From Lactobacillus huangpiensis (GTDB lineage: Bacteria; Bacillota; Bacilli; Lactobacillales; Lactobacillaceae), in the NCBI RefSeq assembly GCF_019972815.1, contig NZ_BPPA01000002.1:62001-126000 (forward strand): DNA of 64,000 nucleotides. The letters run 5' to 3'. Position numbers and translations under genes: made by a program. Below, piece after piece: positions 7,670-10,668 of the stretch (position 1 is the stretch's first letter; the number at the start of each line of letters is the position of its first letter). The notes under the pieces were generated by a model. That model ran no database searches, had not been told where the DNA came from, and worked only from the letters and a program-made list of their open reading frames with translations.

Positions 7670-8494
7670 ATGAACTATATAGGCAAAAAACTAAAAAGTT
7701 TACGCCAAGAGTTAGGATTGACGCAAACAGAAATGGCAGCTGACGTCATTTCTGTTTCATTTTATTCTAAAGTAGAACGAGGCCTAAATGATATCGGGAC
7801 AAATGACTTTCTAAAAATTTTGCAAAAACATGATGTTGATCCGAAAGATTTTTTCAATGACTATGAAAATAAAAAAGAAAGTAAGAAAAAGTTGATTATT
7901 CTGATAAACAAATTCATGAAAGTAGCTTACACAGAAAATAATTATGAAATGACAAAAATTATTAAAGATTTTGAAAAAATTAACCCACAAACTCCGTTTG
8001 TTAAATTTTCGATTATGCTTGCTAAGCTAATTGTCAAAACTCAGGATAAATCAGGTTTAAAAAAATTAACTAGTGACCAAAAAAATAGTATTAGAAATTT
8101 AATTTTTAAAGAAAGCTATAGTGATGAAGAATATTATAGAATTATACTTATTGCCAACTTAATGCAGGTATACAGCGTAGATGAAGCTACTTTTTTTGTT
8201 AAAAATATTATAAGACGTTATCAAAATATAAATAAACTAGATAAAAAAATTGAAGTTGCTTTAAGTGTTTTACTTATTAATTATGTAGATTGGTGCTTTA
8301 AGAAAAATAAATTTGATTTATGTAAAGAGCCTCTAAATTATATAAAACAGATGCCTAACAATATAGAGCTGGCCTTTTCTAAAATTTTGGGACTTTATTT
8401 TGCAGAGTTAATTGGTGGAAATAAGGAAAAAGGTGAAAATATCAAAGAAGTTTTATATGAATCTGGCTATAAATCAATAGTCAAAAGAATGTAA
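7670..8494 (+). CDS. Rgg/GadR/MutR-family transcriptional regulator
   Basis: A 274-residue regulator with an N-terminal Cro/C1-type helix-turn-helix (residues 5-60, with the Rgg-typical SFYSKVERG segment) and a C-terminal all-helical region of repeat-like helices, as in RRNPP peptide receptors. Rgg proteins bind short hydrophobic peptides imported by oligopeptide permease and then regulate nearby promoters. A 14-codon hydrophobic peptide gene starts 99 bases downstream on the same strand, and a fumarate-reductase-like pseudogene follows. The coding sequence is very A/T- and Lys/Asn-rich compared with its neighbours, suggesting transfer. Confidence 0.85.
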   Translation: MNYIGKKLKSLRQELGLTQTEMAADVISVSFYSKVERGLNDIGTNDFLKILQKHDVDPKDFFNDYENKKESKKKLIILINKFMKVAYTENNYEMTKIIKDFEKINPQTPFVKFSIMLAKLIVKTQDKSGLKKLTSDQKNSIRNLIFKESYSDEEYYRIILIANLMQVYSVDEATFFVKNIIRRYQNINKLDKKIEVALSVLLINYVDWCFKKNKFDLCKEPLNYIKQMPNNIELAFSKILGLYFAELIGGNKEKGENIKEVLYESGYKSIVKRM

Positions 8495-8500
8495 AAAATA

Positions 8501-8514
8501 TTTCAAATATGAAA
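8501..8514. promoter_or_regulatory. Dyad TTTCA-N4-TGAAA, possible Rgg operator
   Basis: A 5-bp perfect inverted repeat with a 4-base spacer lies about 25 bases upstream of the extended -10 element of the short peptide gene. Its position suits an activator site. Assignment to the Rgg protein is inference. Confidence 0.35.
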
Positions 8515-8537
8515 ACTTAAATACTTGCAGATGCATA

Positions 8538-8546
8538 TGTTATAAA
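8538..8546 (+). promoter_or_regulatory. Extended -10 promoter of the short peptide gene
   Basis: TG-T-TATAAA (8538-8546) is an extended -10 element. TTGCAG at 8525-8530 is too close to be a normal -35, as in activator-dependent promoters. It places a transcript start about 40 bases before the peptide start. Confidence 0.5.
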
Positions 8547-8593
8547 ATGGATTTAAAAATAAATTAGTGAGAAATTTGAAGGGAGGGAAGATC

Positions 8594-8638
8594 ATGAATC
8601 TTTTAAGAGGATTAATTATAATAATGCCGGATCCGTAA
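8594..8638 (+). CDS. Short hydrophobic peptide, candidate Rgg pheromone
   Basis: A 14-codon open frame reads MNLLRGLIIIMPDP. It is preceded by a very strong ribosome site (GGGAGGG, 8581-8587) at correct spacing, an extended -10 promoter and a dyad, and is followed by a terminator, so it forms a complete tiny transcription unit. Its hydrophobic core LIII recalls mature SHP pheromones of streptococcal Rgg systems, but it has no long leader and ends in an unusual MPDP tail. It sits just downstream of an Rgg-type receptor gene. Pheromone function is inference; the frame and signals are seen directly. Confidence 0.6.
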   Translation: MNLLRGLIIIMPDP

Positions 8639-8660
8639 CGGATAAAAATAAATAATTTTG

Positions 8661-8702
8661 AAAGCTAATTTTGCTACAGTTTGGGTGAGATTAGCTTTTT
8701 TG
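8661..8702 (+). terminator. Terminator after the short peptide gene
   Basis: A 9-bp perfect stem (8661-8669 with 8690-8698) is followed by T-rich sequence. It closes the peptide transcription unit before the flavoprotein promoter. Confidence 0.8.
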
Positions 8703-8769
8703 TGTACACTATTTTGTGAAATAAAATTAAGTACGATTAATAACTTTTCTTAATTATTTAGTTACCTTA

Positions 8770-8839: not shown

Positions 8840-10668
8840 ATGAATAATGAACACAGTTTTAAATGGGATGTTGTTTATGATGTAATAGTTTTAGGATTTG
8901 GTGGTGCTGGTGCTACAGCAGCCAGGTTTGCGGCAGACAGTGGTGCTAAAGTTTTATAGTTTTATTGGTAGATAGTGCGCCAGAAGGTCATGAGGGTGGT
9001 AATACACGCTATGCTGGTCAAATGGTAGGAGCTGGTACGGATTATGAAGCTTTAAAAAAGTACCATGAAAATTTGGCGGCACCTTTGAAGCCAGACAAAG
9101 AAACATTCAACAATTTAATTGAAGGAATGGCTAATATGAGTGAATATTTTGAAAAATATTTGGGTGTTAAACCAGTTAGCATGAAGAAATTGCTGGCTGG
9201 CACTCCTTCAACCAAATATGTGACCGAATATCCTGAATTGCCTTATGATGATTACTTAGTTCATAATGGCACAAGTGATGCTGCTTTGTGGAAACTTTTA
9301 CGCCAAAAAGTACTAGATCGTTCAGAAAAAATTACTGTTTGGTACAGTAGTCCAGCTAAACATTTGATCCAAGATGGTGGCTCAAAAATTGTTTTAGGCG
9401 CTCAAATTGAACGAGATCATGTCTTACGCAACATTAAAGCAAATAACGGTGTAGTTTTGGCTGTCGGTGGTTTTGAAAATAATAAGGAAATGATCCAGAC
9501 GTTTTTACAGTCTTCTTATTTGTCACCAATTGGTTCTCTGTACAATAAGGGTGATGGCATTAAAATGTTGGAAGAAGTAAATGCGCAGTTGTGGAATATG
9601 CGGTCATTTGAATCACTTGGTCAATTTCATGGCCTTTCACCAAGGCAAAAAGAAGGCATTCGTTCGACATATGCTCTAAATGTTTTTTGGTCAGAAATAG
9701 CAAAAGGTAGTGCAATCGTTGTTGGTGAAGATGGTAGTCGTTACTTCAATGAAGCAGAACTAAATCGACATGGTCATATTTATAATCATGGTGATTGGGT
9801 AGTGCCGTTGAATCAAAACCATCCTTATATGATTTTTGACCAGGAAAAATATGAAGAACTTCTTAATGAACCAGATGATGGTCTTAAAGTGCCTCATTTC
9901 TTGGATAATATTATTAAGGCTGATTCAATTGCTGATTTGGCTTCAGCAATTGATAAAGATCCCGAAATTTTGTCTCAAACAATTTCAGAGTTCAATTTTA
10001 TGGCACAACAAGGAAAAGATTATGCTTATCACCGCGATCCTGCAACTTTGCGTGCGTTTAGTCAGAATGGACCGTTTTATGCAATTGCCCTGAGACAAAA
10101 TATGCTTAATACTCAAGGTGGCGGCCGGCGTGACGGTCATGCTCAAGTACTAGATCCTAATGGGACTCCAATCCCGCATTTGTTTGAAGCAGGAGAATTA
10201 GGTTCACCATTTGTTAATAAATATACTACCGGTGGTAATATTACCGATTGTTTAATTTCTGGTAAAATTGCTGGAGAAAATGCTGCTGCTACTAAACAGG
10301 ATATATCTAGAATCGGTACAACGAATTTAACTAGTGCGCCAATTAATGATAATTTTGTTGCCTCAAGTGATGAAGGCGCTCAAAAATTTAAAGTAGGTCC
10401 TAATCAATATTTAGGATACAGTAATCAAGGTATGGGTGATGGTGTGATTGTCAGAACTACCTTGGATGAATCAGGCAAGATTGTGGATGTCGAAATTTTA
10501 AAGCAAACTGAAAGTGATGACTACGGCTCAAAAGCTGTTAAAGAGTTGCCTCAAAAAATGGTTGAGCAAAACACCTACGATGTCGATGCTGTTTCTGGAG
10601 CATCAGAAACCAGCAGAGCAATAAAAGAAGCTGTCAAAGATTCGTTAAATAAGGCAGAGAGAAAGTAA
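8840..10668 (+). pseudogene. Fumarate reductase-like flavoprotein, frameshifted
   Basis: It resembles the soluble fumarate/urocanate reductase flavoproteins of anaerobes and lactic acid bacteria. The first 39 codons from ATG 8840 encode the FAD dinucleotide motif (GFGGAGATAARFAA) and end at TAG 8957. The remaining frame (from 8965, no ribosome site) carries the rest of the FAD/substrate domain and a C-terminal FMN-binding domain with the SGASET flavinylation-type motif. The break is an exact tandem duplication of AGTTTTAT (8950-8957 and 8958-8965). Removing one copy restores KVLLVDSAPEG and one intact protein. As written it should lack FAD binding and be inactive. No signal peptide is seen. 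Confidence 0.85.
8950..8965 (+). repeat. 8-bp tandem duplication breaking the flavoprotein gene
   Basis: AGTTTTAT occurs twice back to back. Eight bases shift the frame by two and create an immediate TAG. Loss of one copy would exactly restore the gene, so the lesion is potentially reversible by slippage. Confidence 0.9.

Follow-up and report, generated by a model that had tools for sequence, protein, structure and literature searches.

The ComRS system of streptococcal competence is built from a receptor gene, an inverted-repeat box and a codirectional small gene for a peptide. Leaderless peptides that act with Rgg/RopB-type receptors have also been published (SIP/RopB and the LCP class), one of them validated in Limosilactobacillus reuteri according to the sections of PMC10518010 drawn on here. 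Pneumococcal Rgg144/939 is induced by mannose, and, in the parts of PMC5913232 used here, no directly mannose-catabolic gene was found in the putative Rgg144/939 regulons.

The locus considered here lies in a 64,000-nucleotide stretch of DNA of the gut bacterium Lactobacillus huangpiensis (the window), where an Rgg gene is followed by a tiny peptide gene, and the pair looks like a cell-to-cell signalling system of this known general kind. The initial annotation had called it a new type, which is too strong in view of the leaderless peptides just cited. What we add to that annotation is a box, a second box site at manA, a tandem peptide array and a mosaic receptor. Judging from sequence, the conserved leaderless peptide/Rgg pair is real, and it comes with a predicted operator and a predicted metabolic target. 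Clade, box and manA site are not described in the portions consulted of PMC10518010, PMC12186490, PMC13361665, PMC10075063, PMC12700828 and PMC5913232, though an earlier listing in supplementary tables is possible.

A conserved, leaderless peptide gene beside Rgg

The tiny gene that the initial annotation had pointed out after the Rgg gene is real, and its 14 codons, GGGAGGG ribosome site, extended -10 element and terminator-like hairpin were all confirmed (Table 1). The frame begins 99 bases beyond the end of rgg. A promoter scan listed no two-hexamer promoter between 8494 and 8594, so that the extended -10 element stands without a recognisable -35. Folding of the hairpin at about 8660-8699 gives -16.6 kcal/mol with a z of -3.0, a value equalled by 2 of 200 shuffles; the hairpin is absent from a consensus terminator scan, whose single terminator-like site lies elsewhere. 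On inspection the 14-residue peptide has neither a leader nor any other export feature. The next gene downstream, on the same strand as the peptide gene, is flavocytochrome c-like.

Table 1. Features of the rgg-peptide locus, in window positions
Feature	Position	Strand	Remarks
Rgg-type receptor/regulator gene	7670..8494	+	274 aa; N-terminal helix-turn-helix at about 1-65, C-terminal Rgg_C ligand domain
Candidate operator box ATTTCAAATATGAAAA	8500..8515	+	15/16 to TTTTCAAATATGAAAA
Extended -10 element TGtTATAAA	8538..8546	+	no -35 hexamer found
Ribosome site GGGAGGG	8581..8587	+	
Peptide gene, 14 codons, MNLLRGLIIIMPDP	8594..8638	+	kept in 11/11 close orthologous loci
Terminator-like hairpin, then T run	8660..8703	+	by folding energy

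Within the window, a short duplication near the 5' end splits the flavocytochrome c-like gene (8841-10668); at that place the genes of G024, G027 and G030 have no duplication.

The Rgg has a match at E <= 1e-20 in 45 of 75 Lactobacillus genomes, and a full-length close ortholog (46-100% identity) in 11 of them, the window's included; in a twelfth, G037, the Rgg piece is cut by a contig end, and this genome stands outside the 11. The named close-ortholog loci are those of L. kimbladii Dan47, Lactobacillus sp. W8174, L. laiwuensis and L. kullabergensis; the named species inhabit bees. Every one of the 11 genomes has, downstream of rgg and codirectional with it, a frame of the same type of 13-17 codons with its ribosome site, and in none has the frame been lost while rgg was kept; because of this regularity we take the frame to be more than chance. 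The proposed pairing of this Rgg with a leaderless peptide gene is thus borne out. The expectation that the ribosome site and a LIII-MPDP core would be conserved held in part: the ribosome site is present in 11/11 and the core is usually M-[DN]-L-L-R-x-[VL]-I-I-I, but the MPDP end is no feature of the type, as other members end in ADE, PQR, AED, TDL, TD, RSNKF, PA or TEP. In all members the peptides (Table 2) have 13-17 residues; they contain Arg, Asp, Glu and Pro, and charged residues near both ends are conserved in most. G032 has a single rgg followed by four units, each with a box, a ribosome site and a peptide, and after this tandem array comes an arginine deiminase gene (PF02274 above cut-off over the 300 residues scanned).

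Table 2. Peptides encoded after rgg
Peptide	Genome
MNLLRGLIIIMPDP	G000 (the window's genome), G027
MDLLRNVIIILPEP	G024, G030
MDLVRGLIIIVADE	G029
MDLLRDVIVVMPQR	G017
MDFLRRVIIIIAED	G064
MDLLRNVIIIITDL	G065
MDLLKTVVIILPDP	G062
MSLALFKPVIIIVTD	G006
MDLLRDLIVVVLRSNKF, MSFLRTVAIIITD, MDLLRDMVVVFPA, MDFLRTLVVIVTEP (four in tandem)	G032

Over codons 2-10 of 12 peptide genes, mismatch fractions at codon positions 1, 2 and 3 are 0.375, 0.131 and 0.455, with G006 (not alignable) and G027 (identical) left out and no neutral stretch as a control. A degenerate peptide pattern finds 14 places in the 75 Lactobacillus genomes, 12 of which, in 10 genomes, adjoin this rgg; the other two (G008, G025) mark the start of longer frames and lack a ribosome site. 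Reversing the pattern gives 8 matches in 4 genomes. Of 397 genomes drawn from the family, 18 reach E <= 1e-35 with the Rgg profile (15 within the genus), and the peptide pattern occurs outside the genus at 8 places: the 7 inspected lack a ribosome site at the usual spacing, and the eighth has a stop inside the match. This draw holds few close-ortholog genomes and so says little on the limits of the clade. Plasmid relatives of the Rgg number 27 records, all below 60% identity. We conclude that the peptide gene beside Rgg is real, conserved and leaderless.

Other Rgg genes in Lactobacillus also have tiny frames beside them. The Rgg of L027 and L028 is more distant (about 32% identity); 82 bases beyond its stop codon lies MVIVPEPYGLIPEIKLYK, which has a weaker ribosome site and is flanked by the box-like repeats TTTTCAAATTTGATAA and TTATCAAATTTGAAAA. 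At L027 a Cys-rich small frame comes next that, in our interpretation, resembles a peptide precursor. Downstream of other Rgg genes, at L031, L150, L157, L029 and L035, stand tiny frames that have ribosome sites and look like leaderless peptides; they read MFIPWYPL (L031, L150), MYPWFPL, MIVVV and MVVTAIICYGSS. L030 has the box-like TTGTCAAATATGGCAAA after a distant Rgg, then a frame that is Cys-rich at its end (GVSVNCCC).

The 16-base box and manA

A 16-base box, TTTTCAAATATGAAAA, lies upstream of the peptide gene in 10 of the 11 genomes. It matches at 14-16 of 16 positions before 13 of the 14 peptide genes, starting 80-96 bases ahead of the start codon. For comparison, 391 of 20,000 random 130-mers with a similar composition reach 13/16. 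Two details speak against the circuit proposed below: in G062 the best box at the peptide gene reaches only 10/16, and the spacing between box centre and -10 element is 36-38 bases in no more than 8 of the 14 units.

The second place of the box is just before manA, whose product is a class I mannose-6-phosphate isomerase (TIGR00218 above cut-off); box and gene have opposite orientations. All 11 rgg genomes have it 53-54 bases before the manA start codon, the window's genome at C14:28335. A ManA match was found in 71 genomes, and 30 manA loci were inspected: 14 have a box of at least 15/16 at this distance of 53-54 bases (the 11 rgg genomes, G037, G063 and G066) and the remaining 16 reach 10-12/16 in that orientation. 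G063 and G066 count against the circuit, since they have the manA box, yet no close rgg was found in these 66% and 54% complete genomes. So does G074: it and G026, without a close rgg, reach 13/16 in the opposite orientation before manA, the box-like stretch of G074 lying 59 bases before the gene.

The sequence TTTCAAATATGAMAA is present in 16 of the 75 genomes, and box matches in G044 and G061, with one in G062, lie elsewhere than at the peptide gene or manA. With a looser box pattern, every zero-mismatch match in the 11 rgg genomes falls at a peptide gene or at manA, apart from one intragenic match in G062. In a search of these 11 genomes for a third conserved target, one-mismatch matches, a minority of which were inspected, are no commoner than those of the reversed pattern; certain ones are shared by several close genomes, such as TTTCAAATATTAAAA, whose copy in the window's genome is intragenic.

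A mosaic receptor

HTH_3 and Rgg_C are above their Pfam cut-offs in the window's Rgg, and TIGR01716 just so (37.2 against 36.9 bits), which gives the combination of helix-turn-helix and Rgg-type C-terminal domain that marks Rgg/RRNPP receptors. The best solved chains by profile are Listeria Lmo0325 (E 2e-11) and then the chain group 4yv6/5w4m; 5W4M is Rgg2 and 5DL2 is RopB (PMC12186490, as far as the part consulted goes). RopB (5DL2) is neither among the chains listed at E <= 1 nor among those in the profile search, in which Rgg2 does appear; among the chains listed, the window's Rgg thus seems nearer in sequence to Rgg2 than to RopB. An AlphaFold2 model is all-helical (mean pLDDT 75.5, pTM 0.71) and weak in the DNA-binding part, with low pLDDT in the first 40 residues.

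By alignment the receptor is a mosaic of a conserved DNA-binding part and a variable ligand part. Pairwise identity over the 11 Rgg sequences averages 77.7% for residues 1-65 and 48.6% for the rest, and over the ligand domain the nine non-identical close orthologs share only 40-53% identity with the window's Rgg. The neighbouring HD-domain gene, by comparison, is 84-98% identical to the window's in 11/11 other loci (G037 included). G029 and G030 show an abrupt change: across the 1.15 kb upstream of rgg they agree at 94-100%, with a dip to 88% near -250, and this level continues into the first 100-200 bases of rgg, after which identity drops to about 60%. A faster-evolving ligand domain is also described for the RopB clan in the sections consulted of PMC10518010. 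Between the window and G027, rgg and the peptide gene are 100% identical; the 1.1 kb upstream agree at 98-100%, against 88-97% beyond, and this difference suggests a recent exchange.

Distances between peptides and between ligand domains are not significantly correlated (r 0.30, Mantel p 0.063, partial p 0.057) in the 8 of 11 genomes used, with the first G032 peptide only, a result that speaks against the proposed circuit. The window's genome has five further Rgg-like genes (L002-L006, 22-28% identity), and by the criteria used there is no tiny frame of this type beside any of the five, which also counts against the circuit.

A proposed circuit, its rivals and known systems

The order receptor, box, -10 element without a -35, peptide gene is consistent with an activator governing the production of its own signal, manA being the second site that has the box. 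We consider it probable that the locus is an autoregulated peptide/receptor circuit of the RRNPP (Rgg) kind that also controls manA. Rgg would bind the 16-base box that separates rgg from the tiny gene as well as its counterpart upstream of manA. The product of the tiny gene would be a leaderless hydrophobic peptide of 13-17 residues, and we infer that this peptide is a pheromone, exported and sensed: it or its C-terminal part would exit the cell, be re-imported by an oligopeptide permease and bind the C-terminal domain of Rgg, re-imported peptides being the ligands of RRNPP receptors. Uptake is possible in terms of gene content, as the genome has seven oligopeptide-binding proteins as candidates; an EcsB-family transporter gene is present too. 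Peptide-bound Rgg would then turn on the peptide gene, a presumed positive feedback, and alter expression of manA and with it the step from mannose-6-phosphate to fructose-6-phosphate, possibly in dependence on cell density. Related species, with the same box and DNA-binding part and other ligand domains and peptides, would use different peptide codes.

The step out of the cell is where another reading enters. The peptide could bind its Rgg within the cell that makes it, serving as an internal modulator without ever acting between cells, as 14 residues without a leader or export feature would allow; the export route of leaderless peptides is unexplained in published systems too (PMC10518010 and PMC12700828, in the parts consulted). 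We nevertheless regard a purely intracellular role as unlikely, since close species have different ligand domains and peptides beside a conserved neighbouring gene, the pattern that signalling codes should give, and since the leaderless peptides published for this family of receptors are signals between cells (PMC10518010, in the sections consulted).

The peptide is also short and hydrophobic, which would suit a small membrane-active toxin or antimicrobial peptide under Rgg control, and Rgg-type regulators often adjoin peptide products. Such a product is very improbable here, given a length of 13-17 residues, the charged residues that most members conserve towards both ends, the presence of the box at manA as well, and no maturation or immunity gene noted in passing among the frames listed at the locus. 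The hairpin after the tiny frame, followed by a same-strand gene, might instead point to a leader peptide whose translation governs read-through into the flavocytochrome-like gene. We see hardly any likelihood of such attenuation, because that gene is found in only 3 of 11 other loci (G024, G027, G030), the tiny frame is kept after rgg wherever the stretch is present (it is cut off in G037), and each of the four units in G032 has a box to itself. That the frame arose by chance and has no function, as its very small length might suggest, is of negligible probability against conservation in 11/11 loci, the codon-position pattern and the tandem copies. Synteny, tandem copies and codon positions are the grounds on which the attenuator, toxin and chance readings were set low.

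Returning to the signalling circuit, a bolder version of it is more doubtful, and we rate it as less likely than not: the locus may belong to a species-coded leaderless family of one Lactobacillus clade, in which one receptor can read up to four self-encoded peptides, the ligand-domain/peptide cassette is exchanged between species, and the switch acts directly on mannose-6-phosphate isomerase. If true, sensing of neighbours and mannose flux would be set together. The predicted operator and the proposed metabolic target, manA, are directly testable, and the natural peptide variants, the four-peptide array and the abrupt change of ligand domain at one point are material for the evolution of signal specificity. 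The manA site may also be relevant to the mannose response of streptococcal Rgg systems.

Among known systems, the LCP class of the RopB clan resembles this locus in having, beside an Rgg-family receptor, a tiny gene that has a ribosome site and encodes no leader, and also in a ligand domain that evolves faster than the DNA-binding part, and it includes lactobacilli. LCPs are mostly 8-10 residues long and aliphatic or aromatic, with exceptions, whereas the peptides here have 13-17 residues with Arg, Asp, Glu and Pro; LCP genes are preferably divergent from the receptor, whereas here the peptide genes are codirectional and downstream in 11/11. Rgg2/Rgg3-SHP of streptococci likewise has an Rgg_C-family receptor, Rgg2 being the nearest among the named streptococcal structures, and the I/V-rich core of the peptides resembles SHP cores; SHPs, however, are longer propeptides with a leader, unlike the leaderless 13-17 residues here, and the codirectional layout differs as well. 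A further trait of Rgg/SHP systems is export through PptAB; in this respect an EcsB-family gene is present in the window's genome. With pneumococcal Rgg144/939 the link to mannose is shared, but here a box stands at manA itself and there no directly mannose-catabolic gene was found. ComRS has the same order of receptor, box and codirectional peptide gene, and differs in the tryptophan motif of XIP (no peptide here contains Trp) and in its second box target, comX, where the conserved second site found here is manA. The locus would extend leaderless Rgg signalling to longer peptides in a codirectional layout, an arrangement undescribed in the consulted portions of the literature cited.
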